25,772 bases of DNA from a virus. The DNA lies in IMG/VR virus record IMGVR_UViG_3300020193_001072, positions 1 through 25,772 of that record. The stretch is one strand, 5' to 3'. The position numbers and the translations under genes were made by a program. Positions within the stretch are counted from its first letter, which is position 1. Each line of letters starts with the position of its first letter. Shown one piece after another: positions 5,726-25,770 of this stretch. The notes beneath the pieces are model-generated. The model was given only the letters and a program-made list of their open reading frames with translations, was not told the DNA's origin and ran no database searches.

Positions 5726-5734
5726 CTATAAATA
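5726..5734 (+). promoter_or_regulatory. T4-type late promoter
   Basis: CTATAAATA, matching the T4 late consensus TATAAATA exactly, 29 bases before the ATG at 5763. It separates the enzyme genes from the structural block. Confidence 0.75.
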
Positions 5735-16776: not shown

Positions 16777-18372
16777 ATGGCAAGATTTTTAGGATCTGCA
16801 GCGGGAAGAACTGCAGGGGCATCTACTATAGAAGCTTCATTTACAAGAGCAGCAGTTTTTAGCACTCCTGGAGCAACAACATTTAATGTTCCACCAGATG
16901 CAAAAAAAGCAAAAGTTTTTGTCATTGGAGCGGGTTCCGATTATAGATCTGGAACATATTGTTTTCTTTCTGATAATTGTTGTTCTGGTGTAGATTTTCC
17001 GAGATCATGTTATTGTGTATGTTTCACTGGACATCTTACTGGTGCTGGTGGTGGATATGCTGAAAGGACTTATGATTCTGGAATTGCTGGTAAAACATTA
17101 ACAATTAATGTTGGATCTTCTGGTGGACTTAGTGCAAGTAGTGTTGCGGCATCTGGATATACAACAGTTAGTGCAACCAATGCTTCTGATACGGTTCATT
17201 CATGGTCTTGTACTGGAAATAGTGCTGCTAGAGATAATAGTAATGATAATCCAGTAGCATTTAATTTCCAATTACCAAGATGTGGACATGCAAATAATAT
17301 TTCTGGATATTATAATTACGGTGGATGCGCTTCAGGTGGTGACATCAATAGAAATGGTGGAAGAGGAGTTTTAATTCCCGAATTTTTATATGATGGTTAT
17401 CTTGATGGTGTTTCTTGTATGGCTGGTGGCGGTGCTATTTCTGGTAATACGAGTTCTTGCTGGATTAATCCAGTATTTAACTGCTACTGTATTCTTGGAT
17501 ATCATTATGTATTTGGAAGCTATTGTGGATTTAATAATGGTTGGAGTAACCAGACTTCTTGTGGATGTTGGGGACTTTGTGCTGCAACATCAAACCTTTG
17601 TGCGTGTTCTGGTTTGTGTTGTAGAGCAAGCTCAAGATTCTCATTTGCTGGAAGATATTCTACAAAGTGTACATGTAACATATCTGGGGAAGTTCAAGGT
17701 GGTCCATTAGGAAATAATTTCCCAGGATCTGGTGATACCGCAGTGATTAAAGACAAACCAATTGGAGTTGGTGCTCAGTCTGGAAATAGTTCAGATATTG
17801 GAAAAAGAGGATCTTCCGAACAGATGGTAACCTCAGTTACTTATGGAATAGATAGAACAACTAGTGGAGGAACAAGTTGCTGTTTACAGGTTTCATATTC
17901 CCATTATAGTTCTGGATATGATTACTCTTTTGGTGGAACTCAACTTAGTTGCTATTGTTCTGTATATTATCCAGGTTGTTTCTCCAATTGTACTGCATTT
18001 AAAGGTGCTAGTTTTGCTCAATGGTGTTACAGATGTATTGGAACTGGTTGGACATACGTATTTGGCAGTAACTTTTCTGGTGGTGCTCATTGCTGGTGTA
18101 GTCCTTATGGACTTGTTCAATGCTCTGCTACCAATTGTACTGATTGCAGAAATAGATTCTTAAATGTTGGATATATTAATGATAGATCATCTATCATTAA
18201 TGATTCTTGGGAAATTCCTCTTTCTACTTTAATTAGAAATAATGCAACGAATGTCAATGATATTAGATATGGCAACGGTGCTACGTTTGATTCTGCAGCA
18301 GGTTTCGGTGGTGGAGGCAATAGACTTTACCCAACTGGTGGTCAAGGATTAGTTGTCGTACTTTACGGTTAA
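16777..18372 (+). CDS. glycine-rich, cysteine-rich distal fibre / receptor-binding protein (531 aa)
   Basis: The N-terminus (FTRAAVFSTPGATTFNVPPDAKKAKVFVIGAG) is the beta domain that begins many glycine-rich phage tail-tip proteins (usually FxTPGTxTFTVPAGVTxVxVxxxGGGG). The C-terminus (DSAAGFGGGGNRLYPTGGQG ... VVVLYG) is the matching Gly-rich closing strand. Between them, residues 62-457 contain 36 cysteines, many as CxC or CC (CYCVC, NCYC, CGC, CAC, CTC, CWC), with abundant Gly, Ser, Tyr and Trp. This is far above any other protein in the window. The layout resembles T4-family distal-tip adhesins in which Gly-rich motifs form a polyglycine sandwich with hypervariable loops; the cysteine enrichment suggests disulfide or metal cross-linking. 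The next gene may be its chaperone. Role as the host-range determinant is inferred. Confidence 0.75.
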   Translation: MARFLGSAAGRTAGASTIEASFTRAAVFSTPGATTFNVPPDAKKAKVFVIGAGSDYRSGTYCFLSDNCCSGVDFPRSCYCVCFTGHLTGAGGGYAERTYDSGIAGKTLTINVGSSGGLSASSVAASGYTTVSATNASDTVHSWSCTGNSAARDNSNDNPVAFNFQLPRCGHANNISGYYNYGGCASGGDINRNGGRGVLIPEFLYDGYLDGVSCMAGGGAISGNTSSCWINPVFNCYCILGYHYVFGSYCGFNNGWSNQTSCGCWGLCAATSNLCACSGLCCRASSRFSFAGRYSTKCTCNISGEVQGGPLGNNFPGSGDTAVIKDKPIGVGAQSGNSSDIGKRGSSEQMVTSVTYGIDRTTSGGTSCCLQVSYSHYSSGYDYSFGGTQLSCYCSVYYPGCFSNCTAFKGASFAQWCYRCIGTGWTYVFGSNFSGGAHCWCSPYGLVQCSATNCTDCRNRFLNVGYINDRSSIINDSWEIPLSTLIRNNATNVNDIRYGNGATFDSAAGFGGGGNRLYPTGGQGLVVVLYG

Positions 18373-19142: not shown

Positions 19143-19169
19143 TAAATTTGTATTGTTTTTGGGGTGTTT

Positions 19170-20093
19170 ATGAAAAAAGTTTTTGTAATTAATGGTGGTG
19201 CCGGTAGAGTAATTTGTTCACTACCAGCATTACAAAAATATTATAAAATTAATGGTCCAGACTTTTACATTCTTTCCGAATCTGGTCTGGATTTTTTTAT
19301 TGGTCATCCAGAGCTTCAAGATCTTACTTTTGATCTTGGACATAAAGGATTGTTTGAAAATATCATTAAACCAAATGAATTGGTTACATTAGAGCCTTAT
19401 AGAGAACACGGATATTATAATCAGAAGAAATCGTTGACAGAATCTTTTGATAAATTAATTAATAATACGGAAGATCATTCGGACTTAGAAAAACCAGAAA
19501 TTATTTTATCTAAACAGGAAGAGATTCAGGCACTTGATTGTATTAATAATGTTAAAGAATACCATAAAAAGAAAAAGACCGTAGTTATTCAACCATTTGG
19601 AAGAACTATAAATCAGCATAAAACTGGACATACATTTGATCCATCAAGTAGATCATTGAGTACAGATGATTACTTTTATATTTCGGAAAGAATAAGAAAA
19701 AAATATAATGTAATTGCTTTTTCTGAAATTAAATTTGAAAATGATAAAAACATGTATGTTGATACAGGGATTAGACAGTGGGCTGCAATTGTAGAAGCAG
19801 CGGACTATTTTGTTGGTATTGATTCTGTTGGTCAGCACATGGCATATGCTTTTAATAAGCCTGGAAGCGTTATTATAGGATCAACTTTTGCAGAAAACAT
19901 TTCTTATCCAAAATATTTTAATATCGTAGAAAAGAAAAATAATAAGAAAAAATATTCTCCAATTAGAATTCATGGACTAGACGGAGATCTAGCAGACAGG
20001 TATAATGATACTTGTATGGATTTTACTCAACGGGAATTGGAAGAAATTACTAATAATATTCTACATCACATCAAACAAAAAATCGGAGAATAA
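19170..20093 (+). CDS. glycosyltransferase, GT9/heptosyltransferase-like (307 aa)
   Basis: The start MKKVFVINGGAGRVICSLPALQ has the nucleotide-sugar transferase opening of GT9 (ADP-heptose:LPS heptosyltransferase) proteins. The second half contains VVIQPFGRT, YFYISERIRKKYNVIAFSE, and the donor-site-like QWAAIVEAADYFVGIDSVGQHMAYAFNKPGSVIIGSTF, which parallels GT9 (AALIxxADLxVGxDSGxxHxAxAxxxP). An in-frame GTG at 19164 is possible; the ATG at 19170 with GGGGTG before it fits better. A heptose acceptor or donor is plausible because an ADP-heptose pathway lies downstream, but specificity cannot be read directly. It is followed four bases later by the carbamoyltransferase gene, so the two are likely one unit. 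Confidence 0.7.
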   Translation: MKKVFVINGGAGRVICSLPALQKYYKINGPDFYILSESGLDFFIGHPELQDLTFDLGHKGLFENIIKPNELVTLEPYREHGYYNQKKSLTESFDKLINNTEDHSDLEKPEIILSKQEEIQALDCINNVKEYHKKKKTVVIQPFGRTINQHKTGHTFDPSSRSLSTDDYFYISERIRKKYNVIAFSEIKFENDKNMYVDTGIRQWAAIVEAADYFVGIDSVGQHMAYAFNKPGSVIIGSTFAENISYPKYFNIVEKKNNKKKYSPIRIHGLDGDLADRYNDTCMDFTQRELEEITNNILHHIKQKIGE

Positions 20094-20096
20094 ATT

Positions 20097-21791
20097 ATGA
20101 CAATTATTGCTGCAGTTGCTCGTGGTCACAATGGTAGCACCACGTTGCTTAAAGATGGTGAAGTTATTTTTTATCTTGAAGAAGAAAGACTTTCCAGAAT
20201 GAAATATGATGGATCTCCTCTTCTTGGTCTGTCTAAAATTTTTGATTATGTTGATCACATTGATCATTTAATTGTTTGTCACACACATCGTCATGGTCCT
20301 CAGTTTGATTGGACTGGTGAAGATATGTACTCTGGATACATCAGAAAAATTTCTAGAAACAAATTTAAATTTGAAACTCATTATATTGATACGATTCATC
20401 ATCAATTGCATGCTGCTTGTGGGTTTTATAATTCTGGATTTAAAAGTGCGGCTTGTGTAATCGCTGATGGTGCAGGAAGTTTTCTGAATATTGAAGGAAT
20501 AAATGAAGTTTGCTACGAGTTTGAAACAATCTTTAAAGTTTCATATCCAGGAACTTTTGAAACTGTGTATAAGCACATTGGAACAAAAGACGCTATCGGA
20601 TTTAATCAACCAGAAGAAAATGTATATCTGACTGAGTATCCTGGTTTAACCAAGATGTATGAATCTGTTACTAGATTCTGTGGATTTCCAGAAATCGAAG
20701 CTGGAAAAACAATGGGTCTTGCCCCTTATGGAAAACCTAATAATAATATCCCTAAGTTTTTTAGAGATGGATGGGGAAATAGAGATCTGATTATTTTAAC
20801 TTATCCAAATGGAGCATTAATTAATTTTGAAAGATTTCCATATCTGAAAAAAGATTTGGAAAATCAATCTGAAAATCAATATACTGAAATACAGAAAGAT
20901 ATGGCATTTGCTATTCAAGAAGAAACTTCAAATAAAATGGTGGAGTTAATTCAAAAAGCATATGATCTTACTGGTGAAAAGAATATTGTTATTTGTGGTG
21001 GATATGGTTTGAATTGTGTAGCAAATTATAAGTATTGGGAAGAGTTTCCAGATCTCAATATTTACTGCGAACCAATTTCTCATGATGGGGGGACATCAAT
21101 TGGGGCAGCCAAGATGTTGTATAATCAATTGATGGAAAATGAAAAACCAAATAAACAAGAATCTGTTTATTATGGACCCCAATATGATCCATCAACATAT
21201 GAAAAAACTTTAAGTTCTCTGGATGCACAAGATACTTCTTATGATCAAGTTGCTAAACTTATTCGTGAAGGAAATATCGTAACTATTTTTCAGGGTCGTT
21301 CTGAGGGTGGTCCTCGTGCTCTCGGTAATAGATCTATCCTTTTTGATCCTACTATTAAAGATGGTAAAGATATTGTAAATAAAGTGAAGCGTAGGGAATG
21401 GTTCAGACCTTTTGCTTGTTCAATTCTTCAAGAAAAAGTTGGTGATTGGTTTGATCTTTCTGGTAGAAAAGAATCTCCCCATATGATGTATGCTGTAAAA
21501 TGCAAAGAAGGGATCTCCGAAAAGATCCCTTCAGTAATTCACGTTGATGGAACTTGTAGAATTCAAACTGTAACTAAGAAACAGAATGAACACTATTATA
21601 ATTTAATTAGTGCATTTGAAAAACTTAGTGAAGTTCCTATTCTGTTTAATACATCTTTCAATTTGGGTGGAGATCCTTTGGTTGAAACTCTTGAAGATGC
21701 AATTGATACATTAGAAAAAAGTGACATTGAATATTTGTATCTCCCAGAAATTCAAAAACTTATTAAGATTTCGAACCACTCAGATTCTTGA
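20097..21791 (+). CDS. NodU/CmcH-family carbamoyltransferase (564 aa)
   Basis: Two-domain O-carbamoyltransferase that transfers carbamoyl from carbamoyl phosphate (via carbamoyl-adenylate) to a sugar hydroxyl. The N-terminal Kae1-like domain shows ARGHNGSTTLLKDG (His11), HHQLHAACGFYNSGF (101-115), IADGAGSF (122-129), a TMGLAPYGKP phrase and CGGYGLNCVANY. The YrdC-like C-terminal domain shows VTIFQGRSEGGPRALGNRS, REWFRPFACSIL and ILFNTSFNLGGDPLVET. Length and motif order are those of full-length TobZ/NodU homologues, so it is probably active. GGAGA lies about 9 bases before the ATG. Its 3' end overlaps the oppositely oriented neighbour by 29 bases (21763-21791), leaving no room for a terminator. 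It is a good candidate for decorating the cassette's sugar. Confidence 0.92.
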   Translation: MTIIAAVARGHNGSTTLLKDGEVIFYLEEERLSRMKYDGSPLLGLSKIFDYVDHIDHLIVCHTHRHGPQFDWTGEDMYSGYIRKISRNKFKFETHYIDTIHHQLHAACGFYNSGFKSAACVIADGAGSFLNIEGINEVCYEFETIFKVSYPGTFETVYKHIGTKDAIGFNQPEENVYLTEYPGLTKMYESVTRFCGFPEIEAGKTMGLAPYGKPNNNIPKFFRDGWGNRDLIILTYPNGALINFERFPYLKKDLENQSENQYTEIQKDMAFAIQEETSNKMVELIQKAYDLTGEKNIVICGGYGLNCVANYKYWEEFPDLNIYCEPISHDGGTSIGAAKMLYNQLMENEKPNKQESVYYGPQYDPSTYEKTLSSLDAQDTSYDQVAKLIREGNIVTIFQGRSEGGPRALGNRSILFDPTIKDGKDIVNKVKRREWFRPFACSILQEKVGDWFDLSGRKESPHMMYAVKCKEGISEKIPSVIHVDGTCRIQTVTKKQNEHYYNLISAFEKLSEVPILFNTSFNLGGDPLVETLEDAIDTLEKSDIEYLYLPEIQKLIKISNHSDS

Positions 21792-22497
21792 TTAATTGAT
21801 TGTATCTTTTATAAGGACATCTTGGGAAATGAGTATGAATTTTATTATATTCTTCTTGAGAAATAAATTCACAAGAGAAATCAATTTCCTTTTCTGTTAA
21901 TGGAAATAAAGTAAATAAAGGAGTTCCATATGGGATAACAATCTCATATGGTTCTTTTTTTACATCAACAATCATATGGACATTTGTTGCAAATTGATAT
22001 TTGTAATCGATTAATCCTGGTGCAATGATAATATTATTTTCCCTTAAAATATTTGTAGAATAATGAGATTCCGTGAAAACATACTTTATGTTTTCATTTG
22101 ATTTTAAGATCCATGGATTCGTAAGTTTAAATGCAGTTTTATTTTGTTGATATATGTACTGATATTGATCTGGTGAATGTTGAGATACTAAAGGAGATGG
22201 TCCTGGATCTTGAGTTCCCTGTAAATGTTCAACCATTCCATCTGGATTTACTCTGACTCTAATTTGAGTCCATGCTCTAAATTTTATTCCACTATTAATA
22301 TAATTATTGATCGCTGGACATTGCTTAGCAGAGGCCACATCAAAACTATAATTTCTTTGGTAATCGTGATGTTTGTTTGTGGATTTTAATCTTTTTAACC
22401 AATCTGCATTATCTGGTTTGCAATAAGTTGGCTTTTCATTTACAAAAATATCATTTTCCCAAGTATATGCAGTCAATTTTACTTTTTTATTGAACAT
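21763..22497 (-). CDS. protein of unknown function, paralogue of the next gene (244 aa)
   Basis: On the minus strand; reads toward the carbamoyltransferase and overlaps its end. Features: KQCPAINNYINSGIKFRAW, KYVFTESHYSTNILRENN, IIAPGLIDYKYQFATNVHMIVD, VIPYGTPLFTLFPLTEKEID. The same order (FTE, xPG-x-x-D, G-D/T-PL, LTxEKIE/D, SQE/TQD) occurs in the neighbouring protein, so the two are homologous though diverged. No catalytic signature, signal peptide or membrane segment is evident. A good ribosome site (AGGAGA, 22508-22503 on this strand) sits over the stop codon of the upstream gene, so the two are co-translated. I cannot name the family; proteins like this occur beside glycan genes in phages and bacteria, but a function would be guesswork. 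Confidence 0.7.
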   Translation of the reverse strand: MFNKKVKLTAYTWENDIFVNEKPTYCKPDNADWLKRLKSTNKHHDYQRNYSFDVASAKQCPAINNYINSGIKFRAWTQIRVRVNPDGMVEHLQGTQDPGPSPLVSQHSPDQYQYIYQQNKTAFKLTNPWILKSNENIKYVFTESHYSTNILRENNIIIAPGLIDYKYQFATNVHMIVDVKKEPYEIVIPYGTPLFTLFPLTEKEIDFSCEFISQEEYNKIHTHFPRCPYKRYNQLIKNLSGSKS

Positions 22498-22502
22498 TAT
22501 TG

Positions 22503-22508
22503 TCTCCT
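22503..22508 (-). promoter_or_regulatory. Shine-Dalgarno overlapping the upstream stop
   Basis: AGGAGA on the minus strand, six bases before the ATG at 22497 and overlapping the end of the gene at 22507-23232; fixes the start and indicates coupling. Confidence 0.65.
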
Positions 22509-23232
22509 AAATTACGTTATTTTTAATTTCTTTTAGAACTTTATTTCTTAAAAGACTTTTATTGAATACCTTATAAAGGTAGTCTAAACCTTTAAAAGAT
22601 TTGAAATTTTTTAGTTGGGTACAACTAAGTGACATATCTATTAAATCTTGAGTTAAATAAAATCTTTTTAATTCTATTTTTTCATTAGTCAAAAATTTAA
22701 TATACATTAATGGATCACCTTCATTTACTTTTAATGTAGATTCTCCAGGAAATAATTGATATGCACCTTCTACTGGTCTAAACCATTGAGAAATATCAAA
22801 AGATCCCGGAACATAATATGCAGTATCAGTTAAATGGGTTTTGTGCATCGAAGGATGCATAGTTTGAATTTTTAATGTCTCTTCAGTGAAGAAAATCCAA
22901 TTGACACAATAATTTATAGTTAAGCTATTTTTTACAGAGCTTTGTTTTACTAAAGATGTCATTGCTAAATCGAACCCAACTTTTTTAGGGTGATTTGAAA
23001 ATGTCCTTCCATGTTGATATGTGACATCAATTGAATATGGATTTCTAAGACAATACATATTTTTCAATGTATCTTTAAATGCATAACAATTAAAGAAATT
23101 ATCAGATATATTTTCTTCGTTCTTGTTTTTTACTAAGTCTGAATATACACTGTCTATATCGTGATAACAAAGATAATTTTCTTTGTATATATTCACGTCT
23201 CTATACCAAGGAGACCAATAAACCGTAATCAT
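22507..23232 (-). CDS. protein of unknown function, paralogue of the previous gene (241 aa)
   Basis: First gene of a two-gene minus-strand unit, divergent from the heptose genes. Motifs parallel those of its neighbour: FNCYAFKDTLKNMYCLRNPY, INYCVNWIFFTEETLKIQTM, HPSMHKT, YYVPGSFDISQWFRPVEGAY, VNEGDPLMYIKFLTNEKIEL and LTQDLIDM. The VPG-x-x-D and GDPL segments are conserved between the pair. No signal peptide or membrane helix. The 47-base AT-rich gap to the divergent gene must hold promoters for both directions. Function unknown. Position between a carbamoyltransferase and heptose genes suggests a role in glycan or cell-surface change, but this is only positional. Confidence 0.7.
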   Translation of the reverse strand: MITVYWSPWYRDVNIYKENYLCYHDIDSVYSDLVKNKNEENISDNFFNCYAFKDTLKNMYCLRNPYSIDVTYQHGRTFSNHPKKVGFDLAMTSLVKQSSVKNSLTINYCVNWIFFTEETLKIQTMHPSMHKTHLTDTAYYVPGSFDISQWFRPVEGAYQLFPGESTLKVNEGDPLMYIKFLTNEKIELKRFYLTQDLIDMSLSCTQLKNFKSFKGLDYLYKVFNKSLLRNKVLKEIKNNVI

Positions 23233-23288: not shown

Positions 23289-23690
23289 ATGAAAACCGTA
23301 TTTGTTAATGGTACATTTGACGTTCTTCATAGAGGGCATCTTGAATTACTAAATTATGCCAGGTCTTTTGGTGATTATGTTGTCGTTGGTATTGATACTG
23401 ATGATAGAGTGAAAGAAAAGAAAGGAGAATCTAGGCCAGTTAATACGACTGAAGATAGGGCATTTATGCTAACGAATCTAAAATCTGTAGATGAGGTTAG
23501 ATTCTTCAGCACCGATAAAGAACTAGAAGATTTGGTAAAATCTGTAAAACCTGATATAATGATTGTTGGATCTGACTGGAAAGGTAAATCAGTTATAGGT
23601 TCATATTACTCAGCAGAATTAAAATTTTTTGATAGAATAGATGGATACTCTTCAACAAAGATCATTCAAAGTATTATTGATCGGGGATAG
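23289..23690 (+). CDS. heptose-1-phosphate adenylyltransferase-like (HldE C-domain type, 133 aa)
   Basis: Nucleotidyltransferase of the HldE-C/RfaE-II and TagD family: VNGTFDVLHRGHLELLNYAR carries the GxFDxxHxGH nucleotide-binding motif (HRGH, residues 14-17), VGIDTDDRVKEKKGESRPVN is the next conserved segment, VKPDIMIVGSDWKGKSVIG is characteristic of the heptose enzyme, and SSTKII (121-126) parallels the STTxII end. It would form ADP-heptose from heptose 1-phosphate. A glycerol-3-phosphate cytidylyltransferase activity is the main alternative; the adjacent heptose kinase and epimerase favour heptose. The ATG at 23289 matches the family start; a TTG at 23280 would add three residues. It overlaps the kinase gene by 50 bases. 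In most bacteria these two enzymes are one fused protein in the opposite order. Confidence 0.85.
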   Translation: MKTVFVNGTFDVLHRGHLELLNYARSFGDYVVVGIDTDDRVKEKKGESRPVNTTEDRAFMLTNLKSVDEVRFFSTDKELEDLVKSVKPDIMIVGSDWKGKSVIGSYYSAELKFFDRIDGYSSTKIIQSIIDRG

Positions 23691-24402
23691 TTGTGAAGAT
23701 GAATATATGTATGGACGTTGCGAAAGAATAAGTCCAGAAGCTCCCGTTCCCGTGATGGAGTTTTCCAGAATGGAAACTAAACCAGGAATGGCATCTAATG
23801 TATATTTCAATTTGCAAGCATTTAATATTGAAGTTACTTTTCTGACAAATTCAGAAAAAATAGTAAAGACCAGATTTATAGATGAAAAATCCAATCAACA
23901 AATACTAAGGGTTGATAATGAGAAATCAATAAAACCACTTCTTCTTCCAGTAATGACAAACAGTTTTGATGCTGTTGTTATATCTGATTATAATAAAGGG
24001 TATCTTACATATCAGAAATTATTTGAAATTGTTGATTATACAACATGCCCCATTTTTATCGATAGTAAAAAAACTGAACTACCAAATAAACAAAATTGTT
24101 TCATTAAAATTAATGAAACAGAGAATGAAAGTTTAGTTGGAGATTATGATAATATCATTATAACAAAAGGTGCGGAAGGTTGCGTTTATAAAAATACTTT
24201 ATATCCAGCATCTAAAGTTAATGTATATGATGTAGTTGGAGCTGGAGATACATTTTTATCGGGATTAGTTTATGGATATTTAAAGTATAATGATATTATA
24301 AAAGCAATAAGAATAGCAAATAAAGCGGCATCAATTGCCGTTCAAAATCCTGGAACTTATATTTTAAATGAAAAAGATGTCGATTTACTGCGTAGATATT
24401 GA
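23641..24402 (+). CDS. heptose-7-phosphate kinase-like (HldE N-domain type, shortened, 253 aa)
   Basis: PfkB/ribokinase-family sugar kinase. GDSCEDEYMYGRCERISPEA followed by PVPV (15-38) closely matches the HldE kinase start (GDxxLDxYxxGxxxRISPEAPVPV); KPGMASNVYFNL (48-57) replaces the usual PGGAANVA; DYNKGYLT (116-123) and DVVGAGDTFLSGLVYGY (197-213, catalytic Asp203) complete the active site. It would phosphorylate D-glycero-D-manno-heptose 7-phosphate to the 1,7-bisphosphate. The usual domain is about 320 residues; here a block of roughly 40 residues after VTFLTN and before the substrate-loop Arg (KTRFID) is missing, which removes part of the lid region. It starts inside the adenylyltransferase gene and ends inside the HAD gene. 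Activity needs checking because of the missing block. Confidence 0.85.
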   Translation: MDTLQQRSFKVLLIGDSCEDEYMYGRCERISPEAPVPVMEFSRMETKPGMASNVYFNLQAFNIEVTFLTNSEKIVKTRFIDEKSNQQILRVDNEKSIKPLLLPVMTNSFDAVVISDYNKGYLTYQKLFEIVDYTTCPIFIDSKKTELPNKQNCFIKINETENESLVGDYDNIIITKGAEGCVYKNTLYPASKVNVYDVVGAGDTFLSGLVYGYLKYNDIIKAIRIANKAASIAVQNPGTYILNEKDVDLLRRY

Positions 24403-24706
24403 TGGTACTATATGTACTAATGGTGACTGCGAATCTTGTAAGTATGAAGGTAGCATTCCAATAAAAGATAATATAGATAAGATCAATAAATTATATGATG
24501 AAGGTAATACAATTAAATATTTTACCGCTCGTGGTATGGGAAGATATAAAGATGATATACAAAAATCAAAAGATAAATTTTATAATTTAACTAAAATGCA
24601 ATTAGATATTTGGGGATGTAAATATCACGAACTTATTCTTGGGAAACCATCTGCAGACTACTACATAGATGATAAGGCAATAGAGGCAAATGAATTCTTC
24701 AATTAA
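24377..24706 (+). CDS. HAD-type phosphatase of polysaccharide gene clusters (109 aa)
   Basis: Small HAD-superfamily protein: CVDIDGTIC (nucleophile and acid/base Asp pair), IPIKDNIDKINKLYDEGNTI, KYFTARG (motif II Thr), LTKMQLDIWGCKYHELILGK, and KPSADYYIDDKA (motif III Lys and motif IV Asp pair). I recognise this arrangement from HAD proteins in capsule and LPS clusters and in marine phages. In this operon the open step is heptose 1,7-bisphosphate dephosphorylation (GmhB), but the protein is much shorter than typical GmhB (about 185 residues), so that role is a hypothesis. ATG 24377 gives a family-like start; ATG 24368 is in frame and equally lacks a ribosome site. It overlaps both neighbours. 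Confidence 0.8.
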   Translation: MSIYCVDIDGTICTNGDCESCKYEGSIPIKDNIDKINKLYDEGNTIKYFTARGMGRYKDDIQKSKDKFYNLTKMQLDIWGCKYHELILGKPSADYYIDDKAIEANEFFN

Positions 24707-25049
24707 AGTGGTCCCCAAAGGATGGGGATTTGAAAAGTGGATCGTTAATAATGAGCAATATTGCGGAAAACTTTTATACTTTATAAAAGGTAAAAGGTGT
24801 TCTTGGCATTATCATAATATAAAAGACGAAACTTTTTATATTCAATCTGGAAAACTTATATTGTTTTACGGAGAAGATGATGATATTAACTTGGCACAAA
24901 AAAAAGTCCTAAGGAAGGGAGATCATTTCCACGTTCCTGTAGGACTTAGGCATAGAATGTATGCTTTAGAAGATACTGAGATGTTTGAATTTTCAACTCA
25001 ACATCTCGATAGTGATAGTATTAGAGTTATTCAAGGAGATACTCTTTGA
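24690..25049 (+). CDS. cupin-domain sugar-enzyme-like protein (119 aa)
   Basis: Single cupin fold with both motifs: SWHYHNIKDETFYIQSG (His40, His42, Glu47) and GDHFHVPVGLRHRMYALEDTEMFEF (His88 and the PxGxxH element). The start MNSSIKVVPKGWGFEKWIVN, the YCGKLLYFIKGKRCSWHYH phrase and the overall length resemble phosphomannose isomerase/mannose-1-phosphate guanylyltransferase C-terminal cupins and stand-alone sugar-isomerase cupins. A sugar-phosphate isomerase or epimerase is likely in this context, but substrate is not readable. The ATG lies inside the HAD gene (17-base overlap); the 3' end overlaps the oppositely oriented epimerase by 23 bases (25027-25049), so no terminator separates them. 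Confidence 0.75.
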   Translation: MNSSIKVVPKGWGFEKWIVNNEQYCGKLLYFIKGKRCSWHYHNIKDETFYIQSGKLILFYGEDDDINLAQKKVLRKGDHFHVPVGLRHRMYALEDTEMFEFSTQHLDSDSIRVIQGDTL

Positions 25050-25770
25050 CTGATTTAAACTTATAATTACCAATCCATTTCATATCAGCGCAAGTATAGT
25101 CTTGATATTTACCTTTAAGATGTTCGGGGAAGTCGATGTATTCGATTTCCCCTTTTTCTTTTTCTGCTACTAATTCAGCAACTTCTTGAAATGAAACTGG
25201 CGATCCTGTTCCAAGATCATATATTCCAGATTCTGAATTATTATTCAAAACAATATCTACTACATCATCAACACAAATAAAATCTCTAAGGAATTTATCT
25301 GAACCTTTGAATAATTTTAATTTTCCAGTTTCACGAATTTGCTTTGTGAATTTTGATACAGGACTTGCTTGATCTTCTTTGTGTTCTTCTCCTCCACCAT
25401 ATACATTAAAGTATCTGAATCCTTGAATTGATTTAAACTTATCTAAATTATCCTGAACGAAGTAATCAATTTGCAATTTTGTAATTGCATAATAGTTTAG
25501 TGGATTAATTACTTTTAATTTTTTTGTTTGATTTCCATATACAGATGCTGATGAAGCATACTTTACTGGAATTTGATATTGAATTGCTTTCTCAAATAAG
25601 AACAATGTGAATGCTACATTATTGTGATGTAATGTTTGTATATTTTTTTCTGTTGTAGATGAGATTGCTCCCTGATGAATGATTAATGATACTTCATTCC
25701 ATCTATCGAATCCGCTTATAAACTTGTATGCGTTTTCTTTTTCTACTTCTATTATGGGTTCATTAATTTT
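25027..25770 (-). CDS. hldD: ADP-heptose 6-epimerase (HldD-like), 5' part beyond window
   Basis: On the minus strand; the frame stays open to the window edge, so about 247 residues of C-terminal sequence are seen and the NAD-binding GxxGxxG start lies outside. Visible: a segment WNEVSLIIHQGAISSTTEKN as in HldD, KYASSASVYGNQ (catalytic Ser/Thr region), NYYAITKLQIDYFV (YxxxK), RYFNVYGGGEEHK, KLKLFKGSDKFLRDFICVDDVV, GIYDLGTGSPVSFQEVAELV, and a final KWIGNYKFKSVKEYLLE. These are family hallmarks of ADP-L-glycero-D-manno-heptose 6-epimerase. The gene is transcribed toward the cupin and overlaps its end by 23 bases. Other heptose genes (a GmhA isomerase, for example) may lie further along this strand, beyond the window. 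Confidence 0.88.
   Translation of the reverse strand, partial: KINEPIIEVEKENAYKFISGFDRWNEVSLIIHQGAISSTTEKNIQTLHHNNVAFTLFLFEKAIQYQIPVKYASSASVYGNQTKKLKVINPLNYYAITKLQIDYFVQDNLDKFKSIQGFRYFNVYGGGEEHKEDQASPVSKFTKQIRETGKLKLFKGSDKFLRDFICVDDVVDIVLNNNSESGIYDLGTGSPVSFQEVAELVAEKEKGEIEYIDFPEHLKGKYQDYTCADMKWIGNYKFKSVKEYLLE

Follow-up and report, generated by a model that had tools for sequence, protein, structure and literature searches.

Which enzyme would carry out the first step of heptose synthesis in a virus that appears to encode the later enzymes of the route and no GmhA? This question is raised by the virus record IMGVR_UViG_3300020193_001072, of the cyanomyovirus type, whose 25,772 bases are referred to here as the window. 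Together with PsbA-like and PsbD-like frames of full length and long frames resembling tail-fibre genes, all named from the sequence, the window contains at positions 23289-25770 a cassette of five genes overlapping end to end, whose adjacent frames share 50, 35, 17 and 23 bases:

23289-23690, plus strand: HldC/RfaE2-like D-glycero-beta-D-manno-heptose 1-phosphate adenylyltransferase, 133 amino acids (TIGR02199)
23641-24402, plus strand: HldA/RfaE1-like PfkB kinase, short, 253 amino acids (TIGR02198, 4e84, GAGD motif)
24368-24706, plus strand: HAD phosphatase of the EcbF/BcbF type, 112 amino acids (TIGR01689, 9iqw, 1xpj)
24690-25049, plus strand: cupin, 119 amino acids, proposed sedoheptulose 7-phosphate isomerase (Cupin_2, residues, genome context)
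25027-25770, minus strand: HldD-like ADP-heptose 6-epimerase, its N-terminal part lying past the window end (TIGR02197, 1eq2)

Judging from the sequence, and with a probability that we put at roughly three in four, this cassette would be a complete ADP-heptose route starting from sedoheptulose 7-phosphate, with the cupin as its non-orthologous first enzyme. The metal-binding cupin would isomerise sedoheptulose 7-phosphate to D-glycero-D-manno-heptose 7-phosphate, replacing the unrelated SIS enzyme GmhA. The HldA-like kinase would then form the 1,7-bisphosphate, the small HAD protein would take off the 7-phosphate, the HldC-like enzyme would add AMP, and the HldD-like enzyme would epimerise C6 to give ADP-L-glycero-beta-D-manno-heptose, to be used by a glycosyltransferase, possibly the product of an upstream GT9-like gene.

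The proposed heptose cassette and its conventional enzymes

The proposed roles of the kinase, adenylyltransferase, phosphatase and epimerase are those of the known ADP-L-glycero-beta-D-manno-heptose pathway (GmhA, HldE, GmhB, HldD), and HldC and HldA are separate proteins, another point of agreement. It differs in having a cupin for the SIS protein GmhA, an EcbF/BcbF-type HAD for GmhB, and a shortened kinase. Since the five-gene set is found again, whole or nearly whole, in many IMG/VR contigs and in the complete genomes of nine named cyanophages, it is not a chance assembly. All five genes are present in P-SSM2, S-CAM1, S-CAM3, S-SSM7 and Sf-FS3; they are more scattered in S-SM2 and P-TIM68, and hldD is absent from S-T4 and Sf-CH8. 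In P-TIM68 and S-SM2, the heptose genes are also accompanied by transketolase-like and zinc alcohol dehydrogenase-like genes (L005:4904-6049, L006:11001-12209), which may contribute to the supply of sugar phosphates.

Heptose models are the top NCBIfam matches for three of the four conventional enzymes. The HldC-like protein is matched best by TIGR02199 (E 2.2e-34; 118.4 bits, under the cut-off of 181.5), and the HldA-like kinase by TIGR02198 (E 2.1e-43; 148.7 bits, under the cut-off of 345), with the heptose 7-phosphate kinase 4e84 as its best match in the PDB (E 1.4e-15). The GAGD motif of PfkB kinases is invariant in the kinase alignment (A4), and the shortness of the protein reflects one internal segment that is present in the cellular homologue and missing here as well as in five other aligned phage kinases. 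The HldD-like protein, whose N-terminus lies beyond the window, matches TIGR02197 (E 1.1e-62; 212 bits, under the cut-off of 274.6) and the E. coli HldD structure 1eq2 (E 6e-44), being identical to the latter at S116, Y140, K144 and K178, which we take to be the catalytic residues. Profile and PDB matches of this kind confirm the adenylyltransferase, kinase, HAD and HldD-like proteins that the original prediction had placed here, together with the GT9-like protein upstream, whose match is weak.

The same prediction had counted the HAD protein among the pathway enzymes as a phosphatase, and a HAD protein is indeed present; it does not belong to the GmhB family. TIGR01689, of the EcbF/BcbF type, was the only model to match it (E 3.4e-10) in an NCBIfam scan where the GmhB/HisB-N models TIGR00213 and NF006506 gave no match, and its PDB matches are 9iqw (E 3e-10) and 1xpj (E 1e-7). 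From the position of the gene, we propose that it is the heptose 1,7-bisphosphate 7-phosphatase, without being a GmhB homologue.

These matches bear on the possibility that the cassette serves another sugar, through a glycerol-3-phosphate cytidylyltransferase-like enzyme and a hexose or pentose kinase. No scanned window enzyme, the GT9-like protein included, attains its NCBIfam cut-off, which tells against our own reading and makes room for this one; the kinase is short, and the glycerol-3-phosphate cytidylyltransferase model TIGR01518 also matches the HldC-like protein, more weakly than the heptose model (E 1.5e-18). We nevertheless hold another sugar to be the least probable of the alternatives weighed here, given the heptose models that score best for three of the four enzymes, the heptose 7-phosphate kinase that is nearest to the kinase in the PDB, and the four E. 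coli residues kept by the HldD-like protein.

The cupin and the first step

An ADP-heptose pathway, as originally predicted, remains the best reading of the cassette, but the list of four genes on which the prediction relied missed the cupin. It had also stated that GmhA is not in the window. There is indeed no SIS domain, the hallmark of GmhA (PF13580/TIGR00441), in the window, and a SIS_2 search at E<=1 found none in the nine complete cassette phages, the same search being positive in 14 of 14 control genomes. What does not follow is that the step is missing, since the cupin very likely performs it. Given that GmhA is absent from these nine genomes, either the host supplies heptose 7-phosphate or another protein carries out the first step.

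Genes deposited under the name 'phosphoheptose isomerase' were considered as GmhA candidates and rejected in the nine phages, where the label sits on the HAD protein (T4-GC 306) and the genomes give no SIS match; the gene so labelled in SynMITS9220M01 is a real SIS protein. The cupin (T4-GC 307) is called 'putative nucleotidyltransferase' in several deposits and 'cysteine dioxygenase' in PHROG, and these deposited and PHROG labels of the HAD and the cupin (L001-L009) are systematically wrong.

The cupin matches Pfam Cupin_2 (E 5e-8), and a profile built from 16 phage cupins has the D-lyxose isomerase 2y0o as its best solved match (E 3e-4), closely followed by an L-ribose isomerase and a second D-lyxose isomerase. 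With an AlphaFold2 model of the cupin (pLDDT 95.9, 59 sequences), Foldseek returned archaeal D-lyxose isomerase at ranks 1-5, and VIA-align gave Z 14.5 and 28% identity for D-lyxose isomerase and a Z of about 15 for phosphomannose isomerase; a fold search against viral models returned mostly general cupins. Because VIA-align scores the non-isomerase cupins CapF and Pac13 (Z 15.4) at least as high as the lyxose isomerase, the fold alone is not decisive and here counts against the isomerase assignment.

The active-site residues are more specific. The sugar and metal contacts of D-lyxose isomerase, as listed in the relevant passage of PMC8378251, are K62, H75, H77, K86, E88, H143, E156 and D163; with an inferred offset of 24 to the chain numbering, they align to K27, H40, H42, K45, E47, H88, E100 and D107 of the cupin. 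The first seven of these are identical and invariant in 59/59 cupin homologues, and the eighth is D in 43 and E in 16. The cupin therefore has, with respect to those contacts, the residue pattern of a cupin aldose-ketose isomerase, with H, H, E and H as metal ligands and K, K and E as further contacts. It differs from the D-lyxose isomerases (2y0o, 7nzo) in sharing at most 28% identity with them and in that the lyxose enzyme uses free sugars.

The nearest sister group of the cupin, from the same bacterial class as the cellular fusions described below, was inspected for residues in 21 members (L137-L157) fetched out of 59 non-fusion cupin genomes, and for neighbours in eight of the 21. Active-site residues are kept in this group, with some variation at position 107, except that Gln replaces His40 in 21/21. 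Three scanned members match PF01050, the mannose-6-phosphate isomerase family (23.4-28.9 bits, cut-off 23.6), and in five of the eight loci listed the gene adjoins a mannose-1-phosphate guanylyltransferase-like gene, one of which was scanned (TIGR01479, E 2e-90). PF01050 did not match the window cupin at E<=0.01, and it scores the nanoarchaeal homologue L114 at 20.7 bits, under the cut-off. Type II phosphomannose isomerase (PMI), represented by PF01050, shares with our protein the metal cupin fold, the residues K27, H42, K45, E47, H88, E100 and D109 kept in the inspected group, and the conversion of a ketose phosphate into a manno-aldose phosphate; the window cupin differs by having His for Gln at position 40 and by being linked to heptose rather than GDP-mannose genes.

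Lyxose and xylulose, mannose and fructose, and glycero-manno-heptose and sedoheptulose have the same configuration next to the carbonyl. The conversion of fructose 6-phosphate into mannose 6-phosphate is the reaction that turns sedoheptulose 7-phosphate into glycero-manno-heptose 7-phosphate, with one carbon fewer in the chain, and the cupin is therefore read as a PMI relative. Taking residues, relatives and context together, it is very probably a mannose-6-phosphate isomerase relative turned heptose isomerase. With regard to GmhA, it has a different fold and is not a member of the family, even though it may work alike.

A more conservative alternative would be that the cupin is still a PMI of type II, or isomerises a free sugar, with host GmhA or some other source providing the heptose 7-phosphate. 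The closest group is of the PMI type, with nearly the same active site and often a mannose-1-phosphate guanylyltransferase-like neighbour, and standalone cupin copies exist without heptose genes. This alternative is nonetheless unlikely, considering that heptose kinases and transferases accompany the cupin both in phages and in fusions, that position 40 separates them from the PMI group without exception (His in 59/59, Gln in 21/21), and that the cupin takes the place of gmhA in an otherwise unchanged operon and has a distribution complementary to that of GmhA.

Distribution of the cupin, heptose kinases and GmhA

In GenBank, tblastn with the kinase returned 35 phage records, 31 of them from cyanophages or marine viruses, and tblastn with the cupin likewise returned 35, including the same 31; there is redundancy among these records, since a single phage may be represented by several copies or isolates. 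In the other four cupin records (Bellamy, twice, SynMITS9220M01 and AG-345-E15), the cupin lies between an HddA-type kinase and an HddC-like guanylyltransferase, the kinase matching NF049969 with E 7e-83 in Bellamy and 3e-85 in SynMITS9220M01. The same cupin is found with the GDP-D-glycero-alpha-D-manno-heptose pathway (GmhA, HddA, GmhB, HddC), while the window represents the ADP branch. The two branches differ in kinase, anomer and nucleotide; isomerisation and the phosphatase are the steps common to both.

The IMG/VR loci show the same association and its mirror image. Around HldA, the cupin was found in 71/80 loci and GmhA in 0/80; around the cupin, HldA was found in 70/80 and GmhA in 0/80, three of the ten loci without HldA being cut by contig ends; around GmhA, a heptose kinase or adenylyltransferase was found in 57/80 and the cupin in 0/80. 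The GmhA model behind these counts comprises nine of ten intended sequences, and the counts are not independent, since many virus contigs are near-copies and some are shared between sets, which lessens their weight in our favour. When whole records were searched with SIS_2, none of the 21 covered out of the 80 cupin-anchored loci gave a match at E<=0.01, and one of 44 HldA-anchored records did (G335, E 4e-5, restricted to profile positions 103-138 and below the cut-off). In two virus contigs (L250:749-1531, L251:9253-10041), the cupin is fused to the N-terminus of HldC.

In cells, the cupin forms the N-terminal domain of a full-length HldA in five loci (L111, L112, L113, L115 and L116). Among 288 genomes from the class to which the L113 organism (titled Peregrinibacteria) belongs, HldA was found in 23 and the cupin-HldA fusion in nine. 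Canonical GmhA (E<1e-50) is present in 0/9 fusion genomes versus 12/14 of the other HldA genomes (Fisher p 7e-5), the two exceptions being G219, with a GmhA match of E 2e-29, and G293, with none. The gene order in the GmhA genomes G168, G261 and G117 is gmhA-hldA-gmhB-hldC-GT9, and that in the fusion genomes is [cupin-hldA]-gmhB-hldC-GT9, with gmhB and hldC also fused in L191 and L116; the GT9 after L191 matches TIGR02201 (E 1e-15), and the other operon GT9s were named by eye. At the nanoarchaeal locus L114, cupin, hldA and hldC lie side by side as unfused genes, and the genome, of about 0.5 Mb, gave no SIS match with an E-value under 0.009. Loci L098-L102 and L119 were excluded as cellular evidence: their genes are those of the phage set, and the contigs may be viral ones binned with cellular metagenome sequence.

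Both the fusions and the two nucleotide branches speak to a further alternative, in which the product of the cassette would be a modified heptose and the cupin would act later, as a C3/C5 epimerase or similar enzyme, like the RmlC-type cupins of GDP-heptose branches. Cupins are C3/C5-type epimerases in Campylobacter heptose pathways, and a carbamoyltransferase gene lies nearby in the window, as do oxygenase genes in its relatives. We consider this very unlikely: the cupin keeps all four metal ligands as well as K27, K45 and E100, the isomerase contacts described for the lyxose enzyme; RmlC-type epimerases require a 4-keto nucleotide sugar, and no dehydratase is seen in the window cassette; and the cupin occurs with both nucleotide branches, the enzymes to which it is fused acting early in the pathway.

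Several observations weigh against our reading. Seven of the 80 cupin-anchored virus loci have no HldA or HddA nearby (L039, L044, L045, L061, L062, L073, L087), and so do the cellular loci L097, L103-L110, L117, L118, L120 and L121; HAD was undetected in 25/80 HldA-anchored loci. Cupin and SIS proteins also meet in some genomes: SynMITS9220M01 has a SIS GmhA-like gene in an operon separate from that of the cupin, in G039, one of the fusion genomes, a weak GmhA paralogue (E 1e-25) adjoins what by eye is a transaldolase-like gene, and in the Woesearchaeota genome G041 a SIS protein is encoded next to an HddA-like gene (by eye), away from the cupin. Furthermore, the HldA tree, from which G176 was left out as no reading frame was found, unites the cupin-HldA fusions in a single clade (support 100/99), and the profile association therefore amounts to about one replacement event, plus the viral and nanoarchaeal cases. 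The cupin family may have more than one specificity.

Two further details concern these loci. The cupin stands alone in L039, L044, L045, L062, L073 and L087, some copies lying, by eye, beside thymidylate synthase/DHFR-like or phosphoesterase-like genes. The second operon of SynMITS9220M01 (L011:13574-15021, L016) holds GHMP heptose kinase-like and divergent SIS GmhA-like genes.

Gene content, residues, context, fusions and complementarity to GmhA, from which the activities, the substrate and the use of the product are all predicted, lead us to propose that the cupin very probably stands in for GmhA. It is also likely that metal cupins derived from PMI are sedoheptulose 7-phosphate isomerases of a second class, not homologous to the first. 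They would supply both the ADP and the GDP branch of heptose synthesis in ocean viruses, in a nanoarchaeon and, as HldA fusions, in one clade of ultra-small bacteria, and they would provide cyanophages with a complete pathway that does not depend on host GmhA.

Neighbouring genes and the use of the product

Two genes upstream of the cassette may be relevant to the fate of the predicted ADP-heptose:

19164-20093, plus strand: GT9-like protein, possible heptosyltransferase, weak (TIGR02201 E 7.4e-6, residues 134-239)
20097-21791, plus strand: NodU/NolO-like carbamoyltransferase (PF16861 E 1.6e-60, PF02543 E 1.4e-22)

The GT9-like protein also matches phrog_8954 (E 6e-92), a PHROG family to which no function is assigned, and a carbamoyltransferase gene lies upstream of the cassette in P-SSM2, S-CAM1, S-CAM3, S-SSM7 and Sf-FS3 as well. 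The presence of both genes suggests transfer onto a glycan, either of the host surface or of the virion.

Between the carbamoyltransferase and hldC, the minus strand (21763-23232) encodes two adjoining proteins, of phrog_7084 and phrog_17480, whose genes are directly consecutive in P-SSM2. The tail-fibre-like protein encoded at 16777-18372 (531 amino acids) has an unusually high content of cysteine and glycine. The T4-type late promoter TATAAATA has three matches in the window, versus 3.3 expected by chance, and none upstream of the cassette; those at 5727, 6829 and 16407 are each just upstream of a gene, the count not exceeding chance.

Cyanophage heptose and lipopolysaccharide (LPS) genes have already been published, as passages of PMC7378029 and PMC7824862 indicate. 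The latter, a jumbo-phage review, deals, like a report cited in it, with the LPS/sugar cluster of P-SSM2, which is the same cluster as the window cassette, and its passage on such clusters states that they 'may also feature' cupin-fold sugar isomerases, PfkB kinases, nucleotidyltransferases and HAD phosphatases. That passage assigns no step to the cupin, and the words heptose and sedoheptulose do not occur in the review text. No cupin sedoheptulose 7-phosphate isomerase was found in the open-access literature searched, a scope outside which most subscription papers fall. As for the host, the statement in the original prediction that published analyses report little or no heptose in marine Synechococcus LPS agrees with a review passage reporting the LPS of strains WH8102 and CC9311 to be without heptose or 3-deoxy-D-manno-octulosonic acid (PMC4515613).

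If the proposed reading is true, the cupin would be a clear case of non-orthologous displacement of GmhA and a new type of enzyme. A cassette known from cyanophages for years would no longer lack its first step, and wrong public labels (cysteine dioxygenase, nucleotidyltransferase, and phosphoheptose isomerase on the HAD) would be corrected. GmhA catalyses the committed step of heptose synthesis and has been pursued as a drug target in Gram-negative bacteria. For the phages themselves, the cassette may introduce a foreign sugar, drawn from an intermediate of the Calvin cycle and the pentose phosphate pathway, to hosts whose LPS is reportedly free of heptose.

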